11,044 bases of DNA from Scenedesmus sp. ARA3. Its lineage: Eukaryota > Chlorophyta > Chlorophyceae > Sphaeropleales > Scenedesmaceae. The notes under the pieces were generated by a model, which saw only the letters and a list, made by a program, of their open reading frames with translations, was not told the DNA's origin and did not search any database. Shown one piece after another: positions 1 to 11,044 of the stretch (positions within the stretch are counted from its first letter, which is position 1; the number at the start of each line of letters is the position of its first letter). The stretch covers positions 26,318 through 37,361 of the forward strand of contig RWJK01001399.1 of the NCBI GenBank assembly GCA_004335835.1, read 5' to 3'. The position numbers and the translations under genes are program-made.

Positions 1-252
1 ACCTTATTGCAGTGCTCCAACTTGGTCCAAACCCACCAGTTGCTCTGATGAGTCCTACAAAACCACTGCGGCTAGCATCGCATACACATAAGTTCTTGCA
101 AGCAACACAAGACAAACCCTGCAAGCCGCGGAGTCCTGCAGGCACCCACCTTGTCGCAGTGCTCCAGCGCTTGCACATAACACTGCAGCTTCAGCGCTGC
201 CGCTGCTGCGTTGGCGTGCAGCGGCATGCTGTGCCCCTGCACCTCCAGGCCT
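1..252 (-). repeat. Copies of TTC12-like exon 2, 3' part with donor, plus shared intron
   Basis: The copy at 150-252 covers LEVQGHSMPLHANAAAAALK to EHCDK with donor GTGGGTGC. Four codon changes are synonymous and two are replacements. A further decayed copy starts at the window edge (3-20, plus-strand GCAGTGCTCC). Intron sequence also repeats: 30-105 resembles 282-358. The unit is therefore about 240 bp and spans exon and intron. Confidence 0.85.
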
Positions 253-390: not shown

Positions 391-592
391 CTTGTCGCAG
401 TGCTCCAGCGCCTGCACATAACATTGCAGTTTCAGCGCTGCTGCTGCTGCGTTGGCGTGCAGCGCCATGCTGTGCCGCTGCACCTCCAGGCCCGCCTGGT
501 AGCAGCGCAGTGCCTCGCTGTACTGCTGCGCCTTGAAGGCTGCGTTGCCTGCCTGCCGCTGGCGCTCCGCGATTTGGCGCTGCTCCACCATC
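391..592 (-). CDS. TTC12-like exon 2: first TPR
   Basis: The 202-nt exon starts cttgcag|GATGGTGGAG and ends GACAAG|GTGGGC. It encodes a canonical TPR helix pair with Gly, Ala, Tyr and Ala at the signature positions (AGNAAFKAQQYSEALRCY). It is the only full copy; partial copies flank it on both sides. Confidence 0.82.
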
Positions 593-1528
593 CTGCAAGC
601 AGATTGTAAGCAGGTTGTAAGCAGCCAAGGGAGATCAGTGTATGTTTCTGCAGGTTGAGAGGGTGGCTGGAGAAGCACAGTGTTTTCGTGTTGCCTGCCT
701 GCCGCTGGCGCTCTGCAATCAGGCGCTGCTCCACCATCCTGCAAGCAGCCAGCCACTGGCTGGCTGGCAGCCAGAGGTTTAAAGAACAGCATGGTGTATT
801 TGAGAATGAGACAGATGCTGAGTGAGCATATATTACGAGGATGCCACCATAGAAGTAGGATCAGAAATGCTGCATCATCAATCCAGGCCAGAGGCACAGA
901 GCAGCTGTGCCAGATGCAAGCAGCAGGCTGGCTGGCTGGCCTGCTGCTAGGGGCGCACCAATCAGCTGTGCAGGTACTCTGCATGCCCCGAGGTGCCAGC
1001 CTCATGATGACTGAGCACCCACCTGGCATGTCTGTCGTTTATGTCCCGCTCCATTGCTCTGAAGGCTGGGTTGTTGGGTGGGATGCTGTTGAACATGTCA
1101 TCCTCCTCATCACTGGGGCACCACAGGTCCCACTTCGCATAGTCCGTAGCATACGCCTGCGTGTTTTGCTGCTGAGAGTACTCGTCGAAGCGCTGGCGAG
1201 CCCGCAGCTTGCGTGCCCGGTTGGTTTTGAGCTCCTCGACCTTTCGCAGCAGCTCAGCCTGCCTGGCTGCCTCCCCTTTGCGCTCTGCGTCATCCTTTTC
1301 TGCAGCCTCGTCTGCTGAATCTGACGATGCTTGTTTTGAGGTTGCTTGCGGGGTGCTTGGAGCTGCAAGGCTTCCTTTCTGCTGTTCTTGCTGTGCTGTT
1401 CGTGCTGCGATCTTCTTGTCCACGTACTCAGGAGAGATTGTGCCTGCCTTGAGCGATTCGATCAGTCTAGATACCTCTGAAACATTGTCGATAAAGTCCT
1501 CCACATCGGAGCAGTGCGGCAGCTGCAT
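391..1528 (-). CDS. TPR protein, TTC12-like, first two coding exons (partial)
   Basis: Exon 1 is 1528-1023 (ATG at 1528-1526; an in-frame TGA at 1567-1565 fixes this as the first in-frame Met). Exon 2 is 592-391. The 236 visible residues begin MQLPHCSDVEDFIDNVSEVS, resembling the N-terminus of TTC12. A charged Gln/Ala/Lys-rich stretch at about 40-120 is probably helical or coiled. An acidic segment WDLWCPSDEEDD follows at 133-144, then the first TPR unit at about 180-236 (AGNAAFKAQQYSEALRCY to ALEHCDK). TTC12 is known in animals as a cytoplasmic factor for axonemal dynein arm assembly; other TPR co-chaperones (SPAG1- or RPAP3-like) remain possible. The rest runs off the left edge. Exon phases fit (AG|G, then phase 0). 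Confidence 0.75.
690..747 (-). repeat. Copy of TTC12-like exon 2, 5' part with acceptor
   Basis: The minus strand reads cttgcag|GATGGTGGAGCAG and MVEQRLIAERQRQAGN, then diverges. It lies upstream of the real exon 2 in intron 1 (593-1022) and offers a decoy acceptor at 739/738. From it the frame stays open through the intron but enters the real exon out of frame. Confidence 0.9.
919..948. repeat. Perfect 10-bp inverted repeat in TTC12-like intron 1
   Basis: AGCAGCAGGC at 919-928 and GCCTGCTGCT at 939-948 are exact reverse complements around a 10-nt loop of TGGC repeats. It could form a hairpin in the pre-mRNA. No function is implied by the sequence. Confidence 0.8.
1023..1528 (-). CDS. TTC12-like exon 1
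   Basis: The 506-nt coding part encodes 168 residues plus two bases of Arg169. The donor is AG|GTGGGT at 1022-1017. Reading on past the donor stays open for about 20 codons, but joining at this donor restores the conserved NDRHARMVEQR stretch into the TPR. A at -3 of the ATG is a favourable start context. Confidence 0.8.
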
Positions 1529-1567
1529 GTTTGACTGAAGAAGGGCGCCAATTGCTGCTAGCTGTCA

Positions 1568-4337
1568 GAGCACGATGTGCGATGCAAAGCAAAAGTCACA
1601 ATTCGCTTCTATGCTGATTCATGTCAAAGTCAAATGTCGCTGATGTCTACATGGCGCCAAACTCAACAGAATAACCACCCTTGTCACAAGAGGTTCACAC
1701 ATGGGGCACACTCTCAAGTTGAGAGTCTCAACATCAGGACTGTTATGTTACAGGCTGCAGTGCGCGTGGCACATGTTGGCATGCCATATCTCCATCCACT
1801 GCCACTGCAGGCAGTTGGTCTGATGTCAGACCAGCTTCAAACATCCTATGCAATCCGGTGGGACACATCATGATCGTGGCAGGGCAGCATTGCTGCTGCA
1901 CCCAGCACTGATAAGCCAACAGCGCTGGATCACAGCCGCAATGAGTCGCTTGCAAACACCACAAACAATGACGTTTCTCACGAACAAATCCTGCACATGT
2001 CATGTTGCAGACAGCCAGCGAGCTGCGGTGCCGTTTCAGCAACCGCCAGCCCATGCGCCGCTCTGGCAGCGGCGGCGGCAAGAGTGGAAACGCAAGTGCA
2101 GCGGAACACCAGGATAACAAGTCCAGATGACTGCTAGCATAACAAACAACACAGAATTTCAGAGCACAAACATGTTGGTACTCAGCTTTTGCTGAGCGTG
2201 CTGCTTGTGCCAGCAACAAGCAGACAACCGGGGTGCCTGCAAGAGCAGCATCAGGCAGTTTGCTGCATACATCTTCCCTGACACATTCGCCAAGCAGTGC
2301 AGTGCAGCAATTAGTGACAAAGTCCGGCTGCCCCTGCTTGCGCGGAGCATGCACACGTGCAGTCTGTAGTATGTACATGCTCCACGATTGTGCCGCGTAG
2401 CTGTGGTGGGTTTGAAACTGCAGCATAGCGTGTGCAGTGTGCAGAGTCACAATCATGCAGTGCGACGTCATGTGCTGTGCTTATATCACATCAGATAAAT
2501 GCCTCCCCACTTACAAGAACTCTGCATGGAAGATGCAGCGCTGTCTTGCAGGAAATGTACAGCGCGCTTGCAGGAAAGGGTGCGAGTGACAAGAGACACA
2601 AACATGCAGTCCAGCAGAGCTATCTGCGTGTCATGGCAAGAACTTTTGCTCACAGTAGGGAATGCTGCTGCTTCATCACAACCCCCGCCACAGCAGCACA
2701 ACAAAGAAACTGCTGCTGGTGCTTCACTGCACTTGAGGTCAGCCAAACAGTCAAACTCAGCAGTAGCGTCTGGATTGTAGAAAACACGGGACAACGTGAT
2801 GAACAGCAGAACATGTGTAGGGTAGCAAATCAAAGGGCAGCAGCCACACCAGGAGCAGAAAGCACGTGGTGACTTTTCAGTTCATTTCTACTCAGACCAG
2901 CACACAACCTCTGCTGGCTTTGCTTCTGATCGCATCAGAGCAGGAGGCAACAGGCAATCCCGCTGTTGCTGCTTTCGCCTGCAGCTCCGCACACCTGTAA
3001 CAGTAAAACAAGCACTCACAACAACGAACAGTTGGCACCACGCACCCGATTGAGTGCTGCCAAGTGCTGCTGATAGACAAAGAGCAAGACCTGTGCCGGA
3101 GCCCCAGTGCAGTGAGGATGCACACGCACCACGCCAAATCAACACACATCAGCTGCTGCACATCACCGCTAAAGGTATGTAAGTTGCTGTCGATTGCTCT
3201 GTGAGGGCATGCTGCAATGCCAGTGCGCGACAAGCAGGCTGACATCCAGAAGCAGCTGCGCCATGCCACGCTGCAGAGCATAGCAGCTGTCTATGCAGTG
3301 CCGCAAACTCCTGAACCCTGCTCTGCTGAACCCCTTTGCACAAACCTCGCAGAGTGTGTTATAACCCAGGGAGAGCTGCCAACCGCCAGTAAGCGCAGGG
3401 CTGTAAACGAACCCTATCCTGAAACCACAAACATGTTGGCAGATAATAAGCAGACATAGTATGTTTTGTGTTGAAATATGGCATACCAGTGGCACACAAA
3501 CCGCAGCGCACATGCCAAGCACGTCCGGGGCGTTGGAGCACAGTTCTTGTTGCATGCTGCCGCCGCAGCCACTGTGACAGCAAAAGCCGCCACACCTATG
3601 CGCACATGCACCAACCACACACGCTTGCTGCACCGCTGTGTCCAATGCTGAGCACAGCACCACGCCGCAGCTGCGTCCAAACACACGCAATTGTTGTGTT
3701 TTGTGTTTTTGTGTGTATTTTTGTTGCCTAAGCGATGAACCAGCACCTTCTGCAACAGCAGAAGCTTCAAAGCAGTACATGGGCATTTGACATTGACAGC
3801 ATGCCCCTGAGCGCAACACACAGTTCTACCAAAGACGGCCCCCAGTTCTTTCCCAGGCGATATGTACGTCTAGCTGACACTGCAACTGCTGTGAATAAGC
3901 CGCTGCAGCTGCCAACCGTGATGTACCATCAGCCTAACAAACAAGCTGGCAGACTGCCAACTGCCAACGACAAGACAAAACGAATCCAACACATACAGCC
4001 AACCAAGCAACCAGACCACAACAACAACTAGGAAGAACTCAACCGCCATGCAGCACGCAGCTGCTCCACAACATACCACCGTGCATCCGCAAAGCAACAC
4101 ACATACAGCAGCACTGCACAGCCGCTGCCGCTGGCTGCCCCTGGCACAGCTCACACGCACTGCCAGCAGCAGCAGCAGCAGCAGCGGCGGCAGCAGCCAA
4201 AGCAGCAGCAGCAGCCAATGCAGCCCCACCCAAGGGCTGCTGCGACACACGCACCCAGCGCCATCTGGGATTCGAGCCATAACAATCTGCTGAGAGTTTG
4301 TTTGCCCATAACATGGACCACCAGACTGCTGCTGTCG
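1568..4337. other. Spacer of about 2.8 kb with no recognisable gene
   Basis: It lies between the PEPCK 3' end and the TTC12-like start. It should hold the PEPCK 3' UTR and the TTC12-like promoter and 5' UTR. Reading frames of up to 242 codons exist on both strands (for example 2471-1743 minus), but they show no family motif and are Cys/Ala-rich, as expected from this base composition. The green-algal poly(A) signal TGTAA occurs on the minus strand at 2515-2511 and 1752-1748; none occurs nearer the PEPCK stop, so the 3' UTR may be about 2 kb or use another signal. A TG-rich stretch lies at 3690-3727. Confidence 0.6.
4162..4218. repeat. CAG/CGG-rich low-complexity tract in the PEPCK 3' flank
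   Basis: Interrupted CAG triplets with GGC insertions, plus a second run AGCAGCAGCAGCAGCC. It accounts for the long alanine and glutamine runs in spurious reading frames here. Confidence 0.9.
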
Positions 4338-4352
4338 CTATCACCAACTCAG

Positions 4353-4559
4353 CATCTCCGTCGTGGAAGTGCTTCTCTATGCAAGCCGACGTAGCAGCGC
4401 AGCCGTTGCACGCGCTGCCGTTTGCCACCTGCTGCTGCTGCTGCTGCTGCTTCAGCGTCTTCATGTCCACTGCTGCTGCTGCTGGCTCTGCTTCCTCTCC
4501 GGGCGGCAGCAGCGGCCCTCCAGACATGATGCGGCTGCACATTGCTTCGCCAACAAAGG
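4353..4559 (-). repeat. PCK1: Copy of the PEPCK tail coding sequence downstream of the stop codon
   Basis: This tandem unit of about 205 bp repeats [20 protein letters not shown] to [14 protein letters not shown]. It has seven Gln instead of five and Thr for Val before LKQ. Where the real exon has TGA, the copy runs on into IEKHFHDGDA, the start of a third and quickly diverging remnant near 4338-4365. About 14 codons differ synonymously from the real tail and one by replacement. Confidence 0.93.
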
Positions 4560-4586
4560 CATCTCCGTCGTGGAAGTGCATGCTGC

Positions 4587-4904
4587 TCAGCAGGCTGATG
4601 TAGCAGCGCAGCCGTTGCACGCGCTGCCGTTTGCCACCTGCTGCTGCTGCTGCTTGAGCACCTTCATGTCCACTGCTGCTGCTGCTGGCTCTGCTTCCTC
4701 CCCTGGGGGCAGCAGTGGCCCGCCGGACATGATGCGGCTGCACATGGCCTCGCCAACAAAGGCATCTCCATCATGGAAGTGCTCAAAGTTTTTGAGGAAC
4801 ATGCGGCCCAGCTTGGCCAGGGTTGCTGAGAACTCGGCCTTGTCTGTCCAGGCTGCTTCTGGGTGCAGCGCAGCAGACGGCACGCCTGTGCACCTGCTGG
4901 GCAC
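4587..4904 (-). CDS. PCK1: PEPCK terminal exon g with Q-rich, Cys-containing tail
   Basis: The 318-nt exon encodes residues 269-373 and the stop TGA at 4589-4587. The acceptor is gcgcag|GTG. The conserved part ([19 protein letters not shown], then [15 protein letters not shown]) matches the usual PEPCK C-terminus up to about SGGPLLP. It is followed by a tail of about 40 residues that I do not know from plant or bacterial enzymes: [20 protein letters not shown], then [14 protein letters not shown], with Cys364, Cys367 and the final Cys373. The tail could be a green-algal extension. Past the stop, a second copy of the tail begins at once. Confidence 0.88.
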   Translation of the reverse strand: MPSRCTGVPSAALHPEAAWTDKAEFSATLAKLGRMFLKNFEHFHDGDAFVGEAMCSRIMSGGPLLPPGEEAEPAAAAVDMKVLKQQQQQVANGSACNGCAATSAC

Positions 4905-7900
4905 CTGCGCAAAGAAAACACAGGCACGGTCACAGCATTTAAGTTATCTTGAAGGGTTTTGATTCAAGGGTTTGCTGTGTGAAAATGCTCAAAGTTTTTG
5001 AGGAACATGCGGCCCAGCTTGGCCAGGGTTGCGGAGAATTCGGGCGTGTCTGCCCAGGCGGCCTCAGGGTGCAGCGCAGCAGGCGGCACACCCGTGCAGC
5101 TGCTGGGCACCTGCAGGCGGGGAGCGCGACACACAGAGCAGGGTTCAGGGTTTGAAACGGCCGGATTCAGGGTTTGGAAGCATGCGGCCCAGCTTGCAGA
5201 GGGTCCCGTGCAGCTGCTGGGCACCTGCAGGTGAGAAGTTTCAAGCAGGTGGCACAGAGGTTGGACAGGTGTTACATTTGTTGTTACTTTGCCGGCCAGG
5301 TTGCTTCTGGGTGCAGCGCAGCAGCACGCACGCCCGTGCAGCTGCCGGGCACCTGCAGAGAGATAAGCACAGTGGGCGGCACATAGAGGTTTTAAGGAGT
5401 TCTGATGGGCGTCTCCATGCATTCTGCATCCTCCAGCTCCCCGCTGTGGATGACATTGATTATGCCCCACATGCACCTTTCACACAGCCATCAAATGAGC
5501 ACACAATGTCGAAAATAACATCGCATAACACAACAATAATGATAACAACAGAAGTGCCACGCACCTTGAGGTGGAAGATGGGCGTCTCTGTGTATTCCGC
5601 GCCCTCCAGCTCTCCGCTGTGAATGGCGTCGATCATGTGTCCCACGCATGCACGGTTTTGCACAGCCACCCAATGGAGCACATCACATCAAGTAACATGT
5701 CATACGACAAAATAACAAAAGTAACACGCACCTTGAGGTGGAAGATGGGCGTCTCCGTGTACTCTGCGGCCTCCAGCTCGCCACTGTGGATGGCGTCAAT
5801 GATGGCGCGCGTGTGTGCGATGCTCATGCGCTGCCCCACGCCGTACTTGCCACCTGTCCAGCCTGCAAGCAGTACAACCACAGGGACACGCAGTGAGTAA
5901 TGAGTAAAGCAGTACAGATGAAGGGGCTTGACAAATACTCATGGGCTGGCCCACGCCGTACTTGCCGCCTGTCCAGCCTGCAAGCAGTACAATTGCAGTA
6001 CATGGCGATCGGCAGCATGTCAGGCAGCAGTACAGATGGAGGGGGTTGTCAAAAGAATCCACATGCGCTGGCCCACGCCATACTTGCCGCCAGTCCAGCC
6101 TGCAGTAGTACGGTGGCAGTAGGATAGCATTATTTTCAATACATGCGCATGCATCCACGCGGCTGTACATGGCAGCTCTTTGTCAGGCAGCAGTCACTGC
6201 TGCACCTTGGCCGCCAACATGCAGGCATACTACAACTGGTCCTCACACGTGACAGCACTAGATCTTCAACCACACACCTGTGTTGACCAGCCACGCATGT
6301 GTGCCCTGCTGCTGCATTTTGTCTGCCAGCATTGCCGCATACTCCAACAGAACCTAAACTTTAAAGCCCTAAAAACCCTTTCAGTTGCGCACCTGTGTTG
6401 ACCAGCCAGGCGTGCGTGCCGTGCTGCTGCATCTTTTCTGCCAGCATTGCTGCGTACTTCATGGGGTGCCACATGACTCAAGAAGGCCTTTGAACCATCA
6501 CAAAAACACTACACCCAACACACACAACCCTACAGTAGAGTGCTGCAAAAAGGAAACACAAAACAACACAGACATTCACTAAGACAAGCATTTTGTGATT
6601 GCGCACCTGTGTTGACCAGCCAGGCGTGCGTGCCGTGCTGCTGCATCTTTTCCGCCAGCATGGCGGCATACTTCATGGGGTGCCACATCAGAAAAGCACC
6701 TCCAAAGCATGCTGAGAACGTTGCCTCTGGCTCCGTGATGCCGTCCTCAGTGCCTGCGTCACACAACATGTTACAAATGTGTTATATGACATTGTTGAAT
6801 TTGTTTGAGGCAGCATTGTGCGTACTTCATGGGGTGCCACATCAGAAAAGCCCCGCCAAAGCATGCTGAGAAGGTCGCCTCGGGCTCCGTGATGCCGTCC
6901 TCAGTGCCTGCATCACATAACATGTTACAGATGTTGCAAGTGAGTGTTTCAAATTTTTGGGATGCCACATGAGGAAGGCCCCCCCAAAGCAGGCTCCGTG
7001 ATGCCGTCCTCGGTGCCTGTGTCATAGAACATGTTACAACTGTTACATGTGAGTGTTCACGTTCTTGGAATGCCACATCAGAAAGGCCCCTCCGAAGCAC
7101 GCCGAGAAGGTCGCACCAGGCTCCGTGATGCCGTCCTCAGTGACTGCGTCATATAACATGTTACGAATGTGTTACATAACTTTGTTGGTTTAATTGAGGC
7201 AGCATGGCGTCGTAATTTACGGGGTGCAACATCGGAAAACTCCCCCAAAGCACATCAAACAAAGGTCGCCTCGGGCTCCGTGATCTCCGTCCTCGCTGCC
7301 TGCAAGGTGTGATGAATAAAAAAATAACACGTTACAGTTGATGTTATGTACTTAAACCAGCATGCTTCATGGGCTGTATATCCACTAATGAAGTGGATGG
7401 CCTGCTCCATTGTCAGGTGCAAAAATGGATCATGAAAAACCGAAACGCCAGCCTTCAAGAACGCACCTGCCACCTTTGCCGTATATCCACAAATGAAGTG
7501 GTACATGGCCTGCTCCACTGTCAGCTTGCTCACTGGTGGCAGCACCCCAAACGCGTCGCAGCACAGCAGGATGATGTTGCGCGGGTGGCACAAGCAGTTC
7601 AAAACATGGAATTAGAAAAAAATAACACTTGGAAAACCTTTAAACGCTAGCCTACAAGAACGCACCTGCCACCTTGGCCGTATATCCTGAGATGAAGTGG
7701 TACATGGCCTGCTCCATTGTCAGCTTGCTGACCGGAGGCAGCACGCCAAAGGCACCGCAGCACAGCAGGATGATGTTGCGCGGGTGGCACAAGCAGTTCA
7801 AAACATGGAATTAGAAATAATTACTTGTTCACATGGAATAAAAAAATTACACTTGGAAAACCTTTAAACGCTAGCCTACAAGAACGCACCTGCCACCTTT

Positions 7901-10755
7901 GCCGTATATCCGGAGATGAAGTGGTACATGGCCTGCTCCATTGTCAGCTTGGAAACGGGTGGCAGCAGCCCGAAAGAGGCATCCCAGATCAAAACCTAAA
8001 CCCAAGACCTGAAACCTTGGCGCACCTGCCACCTTTGCCGTATATCCACTAATGAAGTGGTACATGGCCTGCTCCATTGTCAGCTTGGAAACGGGTGGCA
8101 GCAGCCCGAAAGAGGCATCCCAGATCAAAACCTAAACCCAAGACCTGAAACCTTGGCGCACCTGCCACCTTTGCCGTATATCCACTAATGAAGTGGTACA
8201 TGGCCTGCTCCATTGTCAGCTTGCTCACTGGTGGCAGCACGCCAAACGCGTCGCAACACAACAGGATGATGTTGCGCGGGTGGCCCCCAATGCATGGGAT
8301 CTTGGCGTTGCGGATGTAGTGGATGGGGTAGCTGGCGCGCGTGTTCTCGGTCACAGAGCTGCATGTAGCGGCAGCAGCAGCAGCAGCAGCAGCAGGATGG
8401 TGTGTCGAGAGGCTTCAGTGGGTTGTTGCTCGATTGATTTCGCATAGGGGATCGTTTCAGGGCGGAAGAAACAGGCAGCAGAAGACAGATGCAGGGTATC
8501 TTGGCTTGCGGTTTGCGGATGTAGTGGATGGGGTAGCTGGCGCGCGTGTTCTCGGTCACAGAGCTGTATGTAGCGGCAGCAGCAAAACAGAAAAAAGACA
8601 AGTGCGCAGAGACGCTTCAGTGGGTTGTTGCTTCATTCTTTTCTGATAAGGGGTTGTTTCAGGGCAGAAGCAAACAGGCAGCAGAAAACAGATGCAGGGC
8701 ATCTTGGCGTTGCGGATGTAGTGGATTGGGTAGCTGGCGCGCGTGTTCTCGGTCACAGAGCTGTATGTAGCGGCAGCAGCAAAACAAAAAAAAGAAAAGT
8801 GCGCAGAGACGCTTCAGTGGGTTGTTGCTTCATTCTTTTCTGATAAGGGGTTGTTATAACAGCCGTGCAAAACCCTGCCAGCTGACGGCACAGTGCTGGT
8901 AGGCATGCCCGAGCCCCGCACCTAAAACCTCAAGCAGGTATAACAGCCTCGCAAAACCCTGCCGGCTGACGGCACAGTGCTGGTAGGCATGCCCGAGCAG
9001 CTCCCCTCAGGCGACAAAGATTATGACAGATTTCAAGCTCAAATTCAAATGGAACCACATGAACAGCACACCATGTCAGCCAGAAACACCAACGACAAAG
9101 TGCAGGGCAACCAACATTCAACACAAACATTAGATAAGACCCTCGTCATAAGAGCTCACCCGTTGCCGCAGTCCACATCGCGCGTCACGGGCTCGTTTTG
9201 CACAGCACATCCAGCACCGTCTGGCTTGCTGAAGCCTGACAAAACCTAAAGACAGTAAATCATGCATGCCGCACACGGCGCTGTAGTCCACCAAGTCAAC
9301 ACATAAGAAAACCTGCTACACTTTACTTTATAACCTGTACTATGCTCACCCGTCGTCGTAGTCCACCTTGCGTGTCACGGGGTCAAACTGCACATTCTCC
9401 AGCACCGTCCCAAAACGGATCGCATCGTAGATGTCAGGCTCGCTGGAGCGCTTCAGCTTGATGGCCTTGGCGTAGCAGCCACCTTCAATGTTGAACACGC
9501 CTGCATAGATTTGAAATTCAGATCGATTCAAACAAAGCAACCAATCACAGCATTGAAAGGGTTGTTGTGAGCTTGCTCTCGATGTTGAGCACGACTGCAG
9601 AAAGATTTTGCAACAAAAAGGGCGGGATTTGATATGTGTTTGAATATAGATCATTGTCTGGCTCGCTGGAGCGCTTTAGCTTGATGGCCTTGGCATAGCA
9701 GCCAATTTGAGTCGTCCCCAATCAGCGGCCGCTTGGCGTCAGCGCAGCCGATGTGAACTTCACATCAATCATGAATACAGTTAACAGTTTGAATTCAATA
9801 TGTGTCACTCACCGTTGGGCCCCCAGCAGTGCTCGTCGTCCCCAATCAGCGGCCGCTTGGCGTCAGTCAGTCACAGTAACCTTCACGCAACACACCAGCA
9901 CAGTTCACAGTCAGAACCTCCGAGCACGCAGCAGACGCCATGGGGTCTCCAACAATGCTCGTCTTCATCAATCACCCACTCACTGGTTCCCCTGATCGCC
10001 AATAACAGACCAACCACAAGTACAATATTTGTCACAGTAACTCACCACTGGGTCCCCAGCAGTGCTCGTCGTCCCCGATCAGCGGCCGCTTGGCGTCAGT
10101 CAGTCAATGTGAACTTCACACGAATCATGCACGCAGTTCACAGCGTGAATTCGAAATATGTCACTCACCGTTGGGCCCCCAGCAGTGCTCGTCGTCCCCA
10201 ATCAGCGGCCGCTTGGCATCAGTGGACAGCGTGGTCTTGCCGGTGCCTGCAGCAGCAGCAGCAGCAGCAGCAGCACCAGCAGCAGCAATGTCATTGCCTC
10301 CAAGCCCTTCTCTTGACATCTTCCCCCAGAGCCCAGATCATGCACGCAGGCACCAATGCGCAGCAACACACGCACCGCTGCCGTCAACATCCACAGAAAA
10401 CACAGCAGAACTGAGCAGCATGACTACAGGCAGCGGCAGCAGCAGCAGCAGCAGCGCAATCGAGAGGCCGAAGAAGAGTGTGACGTCACCCGCCGGGCCC
10501 ATGTTGCAGCCGCTGTGCAACATCCACTCAATCAGTTCATGTATGCACATTGGCACTGGCGCAGCTTACATTGCCACCTGATGCTTCCTGATCAAGCACA
10601 TGCTGCAGCTGCCAATCACAGGATATCAAGAACCAGGCAGCAGCAGCAGCGCACCCGAGAGGCCGAAGAAGAGTGTGACGTCACCCGCTGGGCCCATGTT
10701 GCAGCCGCTGTGCAGCGACAGCACGCCCCGCTTGGGCATGTAGTAGTGCATCAGC
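4587..10755 (-). CDS. PCK1: ATP-dependent phosphoenolpyruvate carboxykinase, C-terminal 373 residues in seven exons
   Basis: PEPCK (ATP type) converts oxaloacetate and ATP to PEP, CO2 and ADP in gluconeogenesis and anaplerosis; in plants and algae it is usually cytosolic. Seven exons (10755-10655, 10246-10169, 9500-9350, 8358-8162, 6753-6607, 5862-5732, 4904-4587) join without a frame break. Numbering the visible 373 residues: a probable active-site His is at 15, the P-loop GLSGTGKT at 31-38 (Lys37), the LIGDDEHCW metal-binding motif at 48-56 (Asp52), EGGCYAK at 65-71, ENTRASYP at 114-121 with the substrate Arg at 117, [12 protein letters not shown] at 146-157, and [17 protein letters not shown] at 236-252, whose Arg236 and Thr242 match the adenine-contact residues of the bacterial enzyme. 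No key residue in this part is missing. The family is about 530-670 residues, so 150-300 N-terminal residues lie past the right edge. The C-terminus has an unusual tail. Introns carry many partial exon copies. Identity is very sure; transcript structure is inferred from splice sites and phase. Confidence 0.95.
4984..5352 (-). repeat. PCK1: Three copies of PEPCK exon g 5' part with acceptors
   Basis: The copy at 4984-5110 keeps an open frame for 44 codons ([19 protein letters not shown] to NFEHFH). The copy at 5181-5224 has an internal deletion joining the SSCTG codons to the KLGRM region out of frame. The copy at 5297-5352 covers about 20 codons. All keep ctgcag|GTG. All share Ser (AGC) where the real exon has Arg (AGG), suggesting the real exon changed later. 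Confidence 0.9.
5404..5640 (-). repeat. PCK1: Two copies of PEPCK exon f 3' part
   Basis: The copy at 5565-5640 encodes [20 protein letters not shown] and HLK with donor GTGCGTGG; seven of eight codon differences from exon f are synonymous. The copy at 5404-5463 has lost the end of the exon and the donor, and carries several replacements. Confidence 0.9.
5732..5862 (-). CDS. PCK1: PEPCK exon f: [10 protein letters not shown] to adenine-binding RMSIAHTR
   Basis: The 131-nt exon encodes residues 226-268, [20 protein letters not shown] through ETPIFHLK, ending in phase 0. The acceptor is cttgcag|GC and the donor AAG|GTGCGTG. Two copies of the 5' part lie upstream and two of the 3' part downstream. 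Confidence 0.93.
5938..6099 (-). repeat. PCK1: Two copies of PEPCK exon f 5' part with acceptors
   Basis: Copies lie at 5938-5977 and 6062-6099, each starting tgcag|GCTGGAC and covering WTGGKYGVG. Flanking intron words such as GCAGTACAGATG (plus strand, 5904 and 6027) also repeat, so the unit is about 120 bp and includes intron. Confidence 0.88.
6278..6487 (-). repeat. PCK1: Two copies of PEPCK exon e 3' part with donors
   Basis: The copy at 6393-6487 encodes [20 protein letters not shown] and VNT with donor GTGCGCAA; its four differences over this part are all synonymous. It breaks frame upstream near the WHP codons. The copy at 6278-6345 is older, with several replacements and donor GTGTGT. 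Confidence 0.92.
6607..6753 (-). CDS. PCK1: PEPCK exon e: [17 protein letters not shown] to WLVNTG
   Basis: The 147-nt exon encodes residues 177-224: [20 protein letters not shown], then [18 protein letters not shown] and THAWLVNT. The acceptor is gacgcag|GC and the donor G|GTGCGCA. A motif TGTAACATGTT about 10-20 nt upstream of the acceptor is a candidate branch-point region and recurs beside the copies. Four copies of the 5' part lie upstream and two copies of the 3' part downstream. Confidence 0.93.
6812..7299 (-). repeat. PCK1: Four copies of PEPCK exon e 5' part with acceptors
   Basis: Copies lie at 6812-6907, 6959-7016, 7067-7143 and 7200-7299. The nearest keeps the frame from [17 protein letters not shown] to MKYA with only synonymous differences from exon e. 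The second lacks about 19 nt after EP. The third has Gly for Glu and a damaged first codon. The fourth is the most decayed. All retain the AG acceptor and the upstream motif AACATGTTACA or a near variant (plus strand: 6919, 7028, 7155, 7325; the real exon's is at 6765). Confidence 0.92.
7374..8117 (-). repeat. PCK1: Five partial copies of PEPCK exon d 3' part with donors
   Basis: Copies lie at 8026-8117, 7890-7981, 7666-7789, 7467-7589 and a decayed one at 7374-7416. Four keep a donor: GTGCGCC beside the first and GTGCGTTC beside the next three. All four encode LPPVSKLT(M/V)EQAMYHFI and then (S/C)GYTAKVAG. Changes are largely synonymous, including Ser codons switching between AGY and TCN families. 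The three GTGCGTTC copies also share intron blocks, such as ACCTTTAAACGCTAGC on the plus strand at 7637 and 7860. Confidence 0.92.
7945..8216. repeat. Perfect 136-bp tandem duplication inside the exon d copy array
   Basis: Bases 7945-8080 and 8081-8216 read identically by eye. Each unit starts CAGCTTGGAAACGGGTGGCA (the second runs on into the real exon d). The unit spans exon-derived and intron-derived sequence and ends inside the true exon d. It is the most recent visible duplication event in the array. Confidence 0.93.
8162..8358 (-). CDS. PCK1: PEPCK exon d: ENTRASYP to SGYTAKVAG
   Basis: The 197-nt exon encodes residues 111-175, from [20 protein letters not shown] through [16 protein letters not shown] to [12 protein letters not shown], with split glycines at both ends. 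The acceptor is acatgcag|CT and the donor G|GTGCGCC. It contains the oxaloacetate-binding Arg (NTR). Its 5' part is copied twice upstream and its 3' part five times downstream. Confidence 0.93.
8371..8396. repeat. CAG/CTG tract upstream of exon d acceptor
   Basis: The plus strand reads GGCAGCAGCAG and continues for eight triplets, starting about 12 nt upstream of the exon d acceptor on the minus strand. The two upstream copies of this region have only two or three triplets followed by an A-rich stretch, so the tract expanded next to the real exon. Confidence 0.88.
8490..8760 (-). repeat. PCK1: Two copies of PEPCK exon d 5' part with acceptor and upstream intron
   Basis: Copies lie at 8490-8563 and 8693-8760. 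Both start tacag|CTCTGTGACCGAGAAC and run to the AKIPCI codons. The first has an 8-nt insertion around the Asn codon, and the second has Ile to Met. Both continue into a shared non-coding block (with CTTCAGTGGGTTGTTGC on the plus strand), so the repeat unit is about 200 bp and includes intron. Confidence 0.9.
8855..8997. repeat. 84-bp tandem duplication unrelated to PEPCK exons
   Basis: The 59 bases from 8855 recur from 8939 with three mismatches (both begin TATAACAGCC and end GGCATGCCCGAG). I find no match to any PEPCK exon in the window. It lies in the c-d intron between the exon c copy and the exon d copies. Confidence 0.85.
9160..9223 (-). repeat. PCK1: Degenerate copy of PEPCK exon c 3' part with donor
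   Basis: The minus strand shows a decayed version of the end of exon c, with GACGGTGCTGGA and GCCCGTGACGCGCGATGTGG. The donor GG|GTGAGC is kept. It is more diverged than most copies in the window. Confidence 0.75.
9350..9500 (-). CDS. PCK1: PEPCK exon c: EGGCYAK and RFGTVLENV
   Basis: The 151-nt exon encodes residues 61-109, [17 protein letters not shown] through RKVDYDD, plus two bases of Gly110. The acceptor is tatgcag|GC and the donor GG|GTGAGC. EGGCYAK and the stretch [11 protein letters not shown] are hallmarks of ATP-PEPCK. The phase is correct with exons b and d. Confidence 0.93.
9574..9703 (-). repeat. PCK1: Two fragments of PEPCK exon c 5' part
   Basis: The fragment at 9656-9703 covers GGCTGCTATGCCAAGGCC to the SSEPD codons of exon c. 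The fragment at 9574-9594 follows tctgcag with TCGTGCTCAACATCGA, a degenerate form of the VFNIE start. They are separated by sequence I do not recognise. Confidence 0.7.
9711..10098 (-). repeat. PCK1: Four partial copies of PEPCK exon b 3' part in the b-c intron
   Basis: Copies lie at 10046-10098, about 9937-9972, 9813-9866 and 9711-9741. The copy at 9813-9866 matches the real exon over [16 protein letters not shown] and its donor GTGAGTGAC, and the following intron bases also resemble the real ones, including a GAATTC. The copy at 10046-10098 has GPS for GPN and keeps GTGAGT. The copy at 9937-9972 is degenerate and its donor GT reads GC. The copy at 9711-9741 stops after GGGGACGAC and abuts an exon c fragment. 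The b+intron+b arrangement at 10046-10230 resembles that at 9711-9866, so a dimeric unit was duplicated. Confidence 0.85.
10169..10246 (-). CDS. PCK1: PEPCK exon b: rest of the P-loop and metal-binding LIGDDEHCW
   Basis: The 78-nt exon starts GC-ACC-GGC-AAG and supplies TGKTT of the P-loop, then [16 protein letters not shown] and the first base of Gly60. The acceptor follows a CTG-triplet tract and the donor is G|GTGAGTGAC. Phase 1 on both sides fits exons a and c. This is the only copy that carries the P-loop half; every other copy in the following intron starts after it. Confidence 0.92.
10247..10286. repeat. CAG/CTG tract abutting the exon b acceptor
   Basis: A run of CAG triplets (CTG on the coding strand), interrupted once by CAC, sits directly next to the exon b acceptor, in the place of a polypyrimidine tract. 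Confidence 0.9.
10460..10519 (-). repeat. PCK1: Partial copy of PEPCK exon a, 3' part, donor destroyed
   Basis: The copy covers [20 protein letters not shown] with one synonymous change visible at Pro (CCA to CCG). The donor region reads TCGATTGCGC where the real exon has TCGGGTGCGC, so the GT is lost. It sits in the a-b intron. Confidence 0.85.
10655..10755 (-). CDS. PCK1: PEPCK exon a (first visible): active-site His and start of P-loop
   Basis: The 101-nt exon encodes [20 protein letters not shown] and continues to FFGLS plus the first base of a glycine codon. The acceptor is a ctgcag preceded by a run of CTG triplets. The donor is G|GTGCGC, again followed by CTG triplets. The intron cuts inside the P-loop codon for Gly34. 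One preceding base completes a codon from an exon outside the window. Confidence 0.9.
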
Positions 10756-10873
10756 CTGCAGCAGCAGCAGCAGCAGCAGCAGCAACGGCAGCATCGGCAG
10801 ATCTCAGCACGCCGCGCTTGGCCATGTAGTAGTGCATCAGCCTGTGCAGCAAGAGCAGCAGCAGCAGCAGCAG
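10756..10873. repeat. CAG/CTG tracts flanking exon a
   Basis: CAG runs occur at 10757-10785 (next to the exon a acceptor) and 10852-10873 (upstream of the exon a copy). Similar short tracts lie at 10432-10455 and 10639-10650. Expansion or slippage in these may aid local duplication. Confidence 0.9.
10804..10841 (-). repeat. PCK1: Partial copy of PEPCK exon a, 5' part with acceptor
   Basis: On the minus strand, gcacag|G is followed by CTGATGCACTACTACATG, as in exon a. It diverges after GTGCTG. Pro is replaced by Ala (MAKRGVL). It lies upstream of the full exon and is separated from it by a CAG/CTG tract. Confidence 0.85.
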
Positions 10874-10981
10874 CAATATTATCACTAATCAACTGTTTCC
10901 ATCACTAGCACAATATCACCGCAACTTTAGCAACTTTCATCAGATACTTGCAAAAGCGATTGTTGTTATTGTTATTGTTAC
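10874..10981. other. Unassigned AT-rich sequence upstream of exon a
   Basis: Probably intron of the PEPCK gene between a missing upstream exon and exon a. I see no exon fragment in it. Confidence 0.5.

Positions 10982-11044
<63 letters not shown>
10982..11044. repeat. ATT microsatellite at window edge
   Basis: About twenty uninterrupted ATT triplets run to the last base, preceded by GTTATT imperfect units from 10960. It probably lies in the PEPCK intron upstream of exon a. The window ends inside it. Confidence 0.95.

Follow-up and report, generated by a model that had tools for sequence, protein, structure and literature searches.

How an intron comes to be filled with pieces of the exons beside it, and how such pieces evolve afterwards, is the question raised by a PEPCK gene of the green alga Tetradesmus obliquus at the end of contig C1029 in an 87-Mb assembly. 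The window, i.e., the whole stretch of 11,044 nucleotides analysed here, carries this gene on its minus strand; the 5' end of the gene and its earlier exons lie past the contig end, which is a run of TTA triplets (window positions 10966-11044). The seven exons within the window (a to g) were placed exactly, with an intact reading frame, GCAG at all acceptors and GTG at all donors. The protein encoded by the spliced exons matched the T. obliquus protein OEZ86_007107 (P0001) except for a single residue, E for K, in exon c. Runs of CAG were observed within and beside several exons.

Each exon with its 12-base flanks was aligned by BLAST to the window, which gave the list of copies below. The partial copies around the PEPCK exons that the sequence-only reading had described were confirmed, with counts within one per junction of those reported there. 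Copies were present at 12 of the 13 splice junctions, and 43% of the intron length was exon-derived. Exons a to g had 1, 0, 1, 2, 4, 2, and 3 upstream copies, respectively, plus one very short copy of c recognized by eye, and 1, 4, 1, 5, 3, 2, and 2 downstream copies. Upstream copies were 5' parts or inner pieces of the exon and downstream copies were 3' parts or inner pieces. An internal deletion split one upstream copy each of e and g, the acceptor was absent from an upstream copy of c (9655-9704), and among the downstream copies the outermost of b, d, e, and f stopped short of the donor. Only some of these arrays were detected by Tandem Repeats Finder, which gave six non-triplet rows for the PEPCK part. 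Full exons and copies, with identity to the exon, were as follows:

10805..10844, minus strand, exon a upstream copy, exon 1-37 with acceptor, 95%
10655..10755, minus strand, PEPCK exon a, full
10448..10519, minus strand, exon a downstream copy, exon 42-101 with donor, 96%
10169..10246, minus strand, PEPCK exon b, full
10037..10100, minus strand, exon b downstream copy, exon 24-78 with donor, 91%
9938..9974, minus strand, exon b downstream copy, exon 43-78, to the donor, 76%
9803..9867, minus strand, exon b downstream copy, exon 24-78 with donor, 98%
9711..9742, minus strand, exon b downstream copy, exon 25-56, 97%
9655..9704, minus strand, exon c upstream copy, exon 20-69, without acceptor, 94%
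about 9580..9601, minus strand, exon c upstream, very short, acceptor and about 17 nt, by eye, unscored
9350..9500, minus strand, PEPCK exon c, full
9154..9221, minus strand, exon c downstream copy, exon 92-151 with donor, 76%
8692..8772, minus strand, exon d upstream copy, exon 1-69 with acceptor, 95%
8513..8575, minus strand, exon d upstream copy, exon 1-51 with acceptor, 98%
8162..8358, minus strand, PEPCK exon d, full
8014..8110, minus strand, exon d downstream copy, exon 113-197 with donor, spacer core as that of the exon
7885..7974, minus strand, exon d downstream copy, exon 113-197 with donor, 88%
7661..7788, minus strand, exon d downstream copy, exon 75-197 with donor, 90%
7462..7589, minus strand, exon d downstream copy, exon 75-197 with donor, 96%
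7373..7416, minus strand, exon d downstream copy, exon 140-186, 91%
7200..7303, minus strand, exon e upstream copy, exon 1-98 with acceptor, 76%
7062..7151, minus strand, exon e upstream copy, exon 1-82 with acceptor, 84%
6958..7024, minus strand, exon e upstream copy with internal deletion (exon 1-25, 41-78) and acceptor, 94% and 82%
6804..6917, minus strand, exon e upstream copy, exon 1-105 with acceptor, 89%
6607..6753, minus strand, PEPCK exon e, full
6385..6474, minus strand, exon e downstream copy, exon 66-147 with donor, 96%
6275..6346, minus strand, exon e downstream copy, exon 79-147 with donor, 86%
6197..6234, minus strand, exon e downstream copy, exon 79-116, 82%
6057..6104, minus strand, exon f upstream copy, exon 1-43 with acceptor, 88%
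5935..5989, minus strand, exon f upstream copy, exon 1-43 with acceptor, 93%
5732..5862, minus strand, PEPCK exon f, full
5553..5637, minus strand, exon f downstream copy, exon 59-131 with donor, 87%
5404..5473, minus strand, exon f downstream copy, exon 50-119, 77%
5287..5363, minus strand, exon g upstream copy, exon 1-66 with acceptor, 82%
5181..5228, minus strand, exon g upstream copy with internal deletion (exon 1-20, 82-105) and acceptor, 92% and 88%
4980..5114, minus strand, exon g upstream copy, exon 1-131 with acceptor, 90%
4587..4904, minus strand, PEPCK exon g, full, with stop codon
4381..4579, minus strand, exon g tail copy, exon 123-315, 89%
4352..4373, minus strand, exon g tail copy, exon 122-143, 91%

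The pattern extended beyond the range first given for it (4338..10850), as a second gene on the minus strand (about 132-1560, with a TPR match under the Pfam cut-off) has copies between 132 and 748. Its layout was the same, with a 5' copy upstream and a 3' copy downstream of the full exon:

690..748, minus strand, second-gene exon upstream copy, acceptor and 5' part, 93%
391..592, minus strand, second gene (TPR-like protein), full exon
132..251, minus strand, second-gene exon downstream copy, 3' part and donor, 92.5%

Self-comparison of the window revealed no local repeats in the intergenic part (about 1500-4250) except CAG runs.

The analysis was extended to five exactly modelled genes, namely the window PEPCK, the PEPCK loci on C588 and C924, CCT-epsilon on C1032, and CCT-alpha on C1492; the models of the four loci outside the window were built by spliced protein-to-DNA alignment. 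The 15-nt exon and the last two exons of C924 and the 9-nt first exon of C1492 were left out as unreliable; self-matches, low-complexity matches, and matches with fewer than 15 exon bases were dropped before counting. In these genes, 110 of 117 matches, far more than chance would give, were direct and adjacent to their own exon, and the other seven were weak (27-35 bits; three inverted non-adjacent, two inverted adjacent, two direct non-adjacent). The adjacent direct copies comprised 49 upstream 5' parts, 6 upstream inner pieces, 43 downstream 3' parts, and 12 downstream inner pieces. The side rule proposed for PEPCK, 5' parts upstream and 3' parts downstream, was not broken by any of the 110 adjacent direct copies in the five genes, and none of them was full-length, each having no more than one splice site of its exon. 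Inner pieces, 18 in all, agreed with the rule but are a weak test of it; one of them (exon g 122-143 of 318) came from the 5' half of its exon though it lay downstream. Six more genes (on C1184, C530, C584, C1400, C373, and C699) were examined with Pfam exon cores, of which 37 of 44 were used; three cores of C584 and four of C1400 were left out as possible copies, since their profile positions overlapped with those of other cores. All 49 direct copies within 1.5 kb lay on the right side (20 upstream, 29 downstream), one of them covering 133 of the 147 bases of its core. One direct match in C584 more than 1.5 kb off, which would break the rule, and three inverted matches were not counted.

The phenomenon was thus present in several other genes, which were very unevenly loaded. 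Copies were found at 12/13 junctions in the window PEPCK, 6/22 in C588, 1/22 in C924, 13/24 in C1032, and 17/20 in C1492 (49/101 in total), and the exon-derived share of the introns was 0.43, 0.14, 0.01, 0.23, and 0.31, respectively; C373 had one copy and C699 none. That PEPCK is special, as had been supposed, was therefore not supported, since the two CCT genes were loaded whereas the two other PEPCK loci were little affected. The further genes had been picked from Pfam lists, some with arrays already visible, so that their loading does not represent a genome-wide rate. Eleven unselected stretches (one of 889, one of 4,810, and the rest of 10,000 bases) gave 23 local direct-repeat matches, with none in six of them, which indicates that arrays do not occur in all genes. 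The third PEPCK gene (C924:37170-42368) encodes a protein 65.5% identical to that of the window gene and 60.7% to that of C588 (pieces compared). It has a higher GC content, more varied acceptors, and one copy only, and is possibly a divergent paralogue or lies on a contig of another organism.

The strict placement of the copies held, but it needs no special mechanism of its own, as tandem duplication across one junction suffices. In a first step, short tandem duplications spanned one splice junction and thereby brought the acceptor with the 5' part of the exon into the preceding intron, or the 3' part with the donor into the following one. Presumably, only duplications that spared one intact exon survived. 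The side rule follows, because junction-spanning duplication and selection for one intact exon leave exactly this geometry. In a second step, the units multiplied to arrays of up to six copies, filling much of the introns in loaded genes. The anatomy expected from the first step and the growth of the arrays are directly visible in these genes: copies had the orientation of their own exon and lay locally, adjacent to it, spacers were homologous, and one intact exon was retained. The duplication unit measured about 107-205 bases for the middle 80% (median 129.5). Within arrays, 81 of 202 spacer pairs exceeded the 95th and 50 the 99th percentile of unrelated spacers, the rest being too diverged to tell. 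The tandem-duplication part of the explanation is therefore held firmly, and the proposal that introns grow from their own exon edges by direct, local duplication was borne out. Of 133 direct self-matches in the five genes, all but 3 touched an exon or a copy, so that intron-only duplications were rejected as an equal class; their rarity is taken to be partly a detection effect because spacers diverge faster. That no transposon is involved agrees with the result for the exon d array, the one array searched, which at the DNA level yielded no dispersed family and, among the matches listed, only C1029 and the PEPCK places on C588 and C924.

Related processes have been described. In a study on the RdRp gene of potato (Ma et al., 2016; PMC4974935), a tandem duplication crossing a junction inherits the acceptor, branch site, and polypyrimidine tract. 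There, too, the duplication spans a splice junction, but a single event created a new intron, whereas here existing introns were lengthened at 49 of 101 junctions in five genes. The same study states the model in which introns are gained when an exon segment containing AGGT is duplicated; an exon-derived tandem copy becomes intronic in both cases, but here the unit carries a pre-existing junction with its intron flank rather than an AGGT inside an exon. New intron positions of the AGGT type were not found in the window gene, the gene compared in this respect. It has five consecutive intron positions in common with the C924 gene (with exons of 78, 151, 197, and 147 between them and the same phases), and these introns are therefore not new; agreement with the intron positions of the C588 PEPCK was only partial. 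Duplication of exon sequence as an intron source is also reported for Drosophila (PMC2891723). Introners (PMC9860276) likewise multiply intron sequence across many genes, but they form dispersed families, unlike the array searched here.

It had further been assumed that outer copies are older and more decayed. This was not upheld: the innermost copy was closer to the exon in 20 arrays and the outermost in 12 (n = 32, p = 0.22), the age order over all copy pairs was 55 vs. 46, and in the downstream arrays of b and d of the window the best-kept copies (98% and 96%) lay far out. The picture behind this assumption, plain neutral tandem duplication followed by decay with the oldest copies outermost, accounts for the side rule, the direction, the adjacency, and the related spacers, but also makes predictions on how the copies should have changed. 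Exon parts were more alike between copies (mean identity 0.884) than spacers (0.762 in gapped alignment; control 0.724), and the exon part was more alike than the spacer in 80 of 91 copy-copy and 92 of 101 copy-exon pairs; in the other 11 copy-copy pairs spacer identity equalled or exceeded that of the exon part. Differences at the three codon positions numbered 117/116/424 between copies and exons and 142/153/353 between copies. In arrays with at least two copies, sites at which all copies differed from the exon were distributed 4/2/44 and single-copy sites 55/73/133. Of 657 copy-exon differences, 400 were synonymous (expected share 0.26), the share being 0.71 and 0.73 in copies of at least 90% identity, 0.66 at 85-90%, and 0.48 below 85%. 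The most decayed copies, those below 85%, were near-even (119 synonymous vs. 130 non-synonymous), as decay would have it. Per-site rates were 0.233 for synonymous and 0.053 for non-synonymous changes, a ratio of 4.4 overall and above 7 in copies of at least 90% identity, whereas neutral decay predicts a ratio of about 2 at most. By copy number the ratio was 2.8 (one), 4.8 (two), 4.9 (three), and 4.6 (four or more), and the intervals overlapped (1.7-5.2 with a single copy, 3.2-8.3 with several). Decay should also bring the third-position GC of copies to intron values (0.52-0.59), but it was 0.812 in copies and 0.822 in exons. Together with the absent age trend, this makes neutral decay quite improbable as the full account: duplication and decay does not explain how the copies evolved, since they changed in a coding-like manner.

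Synonymous changes were balanced in composition (163 GC>AT vs. 158 AT>GC). With C588 as outgroup, synonymous differences in the window gene were 37 times like the copy, 44 times like the exon, and 30 times like neither; with C924 the numbers were 32, 31, and 35. Synonymous changes thus fell about equally on copy and exon and non-synonymous ones mostly on copies, a polarity that is noisy, since in same-residue codons the share of third positions at which outgroups and exon agreed was only 0.63-0.67. Fast synonymous change of the exon alone was considered unlikely, as the outgroups place changes about equally on the copies (with this noise) and the GC changes are balanced. The synonymous excess, the exon-like third-position GC, the balanced changes, and the outgroup polarity suggest that recognisable copies passed much of their history in what seems a coding-like state. 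Amino-acid changes in the copies were no more conservative than random (p = 0.30) and stop codons were mildly reduced (4 vs. 9.3, p = 0.046); purging is therefore invisible in the kind of change.

A coding-like substitution pattern could mean that the copies are functional in themselves, e.g., as alternative partial exons or RNA elements, and among scorable copies the acceptor AG was kept in 44 of 49 and the donor GT in 37 of 41. However, none of the 110 copies was full, their amino-acid changes were not conservative, acceptors preceded downstream copies in 16 of 43 cases, no excess over the 38% background, and a donor-like site followed none of the 49 upstream copies (background 12%). Use as mini-exons was rejected on the last two grounds, and a function of the copies in themselves is regarded as very improbable. 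The lack of any donor-like GT near the end of the upstream 5' copies looks as if potential mini-exons had been removed. Tandem exon duplication is known to give rise to mutually exclusive exons, which likewise places exon copies inside introns, but full-length copies with both splice sites, as in that system, were not found among the 110.

Assembly artefact, i.e., exon pieces of different haplotypes, homeologues, or organisms joined in series, was considered as well, since faulty joining could produce dissimilar introns, synonymous differences, and a division of partial exons into left and right sets, and a 13-kb gap of N lies on the scaffold beside the window. Yet the window itself contains no N, arrays hold up to six copies, some with identical spacers, and the copies carry random-type amino-acid changes, frameshifts, and a few stops, unlike real exons. 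The d array was matched in full by a single locus. Moreover, the deposited T. obliquus CCT-epsilon protein P0121 contains an extra segment of 15 residues that equals one array copy of the CCT-epsilon gene at 14 of them; gene prediction probably took an intronic copy as an exon there. This entry is presumably from strain UTEX 393 and a separate assembly. An artefact is thus quite unlikely.

Capture from divergent haplotypes, in which unequal allelic exchange sets a partial exon beside the exon of the other allele, would make the synonymous differences present at birth. It explains synonymous-only differences and diverged spacers without conversion between copy and exon, and strains do differ in protein, by one residue in exons a-g of the window PEPCK and by four in the C588 PEPCK (by eye). 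Nevertheless, alleles would need to differ by about 0.2 at synonymous sites (the three identity classes below 95% gave 0.21, 0.30, and 0.37), whereas the small number of residues by which strains differ would suggest a few per cent. It would also have to provide arrays of up to six copies, in one case five that all differ. We consider this origin unlikely.

The explanation preferred here is tandem duplication followed by a third step, in which the exon and its copies would keep swapping short tracts in both directions by gene conversion. Spacers would remain outside this exchange and drift until unrecognisable. Transfer of an amino-acid change from a copy to the exon would harm the carrier, so that defective recombining copies would be purged indirectly; copies below about 85% identity would escape exchange and decay freely. 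No direct coding role of the copies is claimed. We give the combined explanation an even chance, and its part on exchange with purging is the most likely of several. Gene conversion is known to cause concerted evolution in tandem arrays, in which the conserved part is homogenised, spacers diverge, and mosaic tracts appear. Here, too, the presumably recombining part was more alike than the flanking spacer. Unlike in such arrays, however, the working exon of a gene is among the members, and all others are fragments located within introns of that gene. The evidence for exchange was strong in one array only, that of exon d, where the only clear mosaic patches were seen. A spacer core of 45 bases is identical between exon d and the copy nearest to it, but the two differ at seven sites within exon positions 115-135, and the second downstream copy differs from the nearest in the exon part only at 172-175. 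Of 55 informative site pairs, 30 showed four-gamete violations, and a single array accounted for 15 of these, but a share of 0.27-0.49 is expected from repeated mutation without recombination; as this control was nearly as high, the test was withdrawn as proof of conversion.

Simulated two-way exchange with lethal bad transfers gave synonymous to non-synonymous ratios of 2.2-6.6. Conversion of neutral copies without indirect selection reached at most 2.4 and was rejected, and the rates of a ladder control without exchange imply a ratio of about 2. Since the rates were chosen by us, these simulations indicate that such exchange is able to produce the observed ratio, not that it did so; in the matching runs divergence (synonymous 0.03-0.19, non-synonymous 0.01-0.04) stayed below the observed 0.233 and 0.053. 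In its boldest form, which we judge possible though less than probable, the introns of T. obliquus would hold partial spare exons in two-way exchange with the working exon, and untranslated DNA would be kept under coding constraint by recombination alone. On the same reading, natural selection would keep the spares almost without amino-acid change, since the exon can be overwritten from a damaged spare.

Of the initial interpretation, growth of introns from exon edges thus stands, whereas a special mechanism for the side rule and outward ageing were abandoned, and the coding-like evolution of the copies had been overlooked. Neither arrays at many junctions nor coding-like copy evolution was described in any title found in the literature outside subscription papers. 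Intron growth is usually attributed to transposons or simple repeats; here, the edges of a gene's own exons supplied the intron material, as seen at 49 of the 101 junctions of the five genes. The mean intron of T. obliquus is 462 bases long, compared with 230-302 in three related Sphaeropleales (PMC5966456), and exon-edge copying could help to explain these long introns. The copies may mislead gene prediction, as the extra segment of P0121 illustrates. If they stay in exchange with their exons, they would offer a natural system in which to study gene conversion and selection on untranslated templates.
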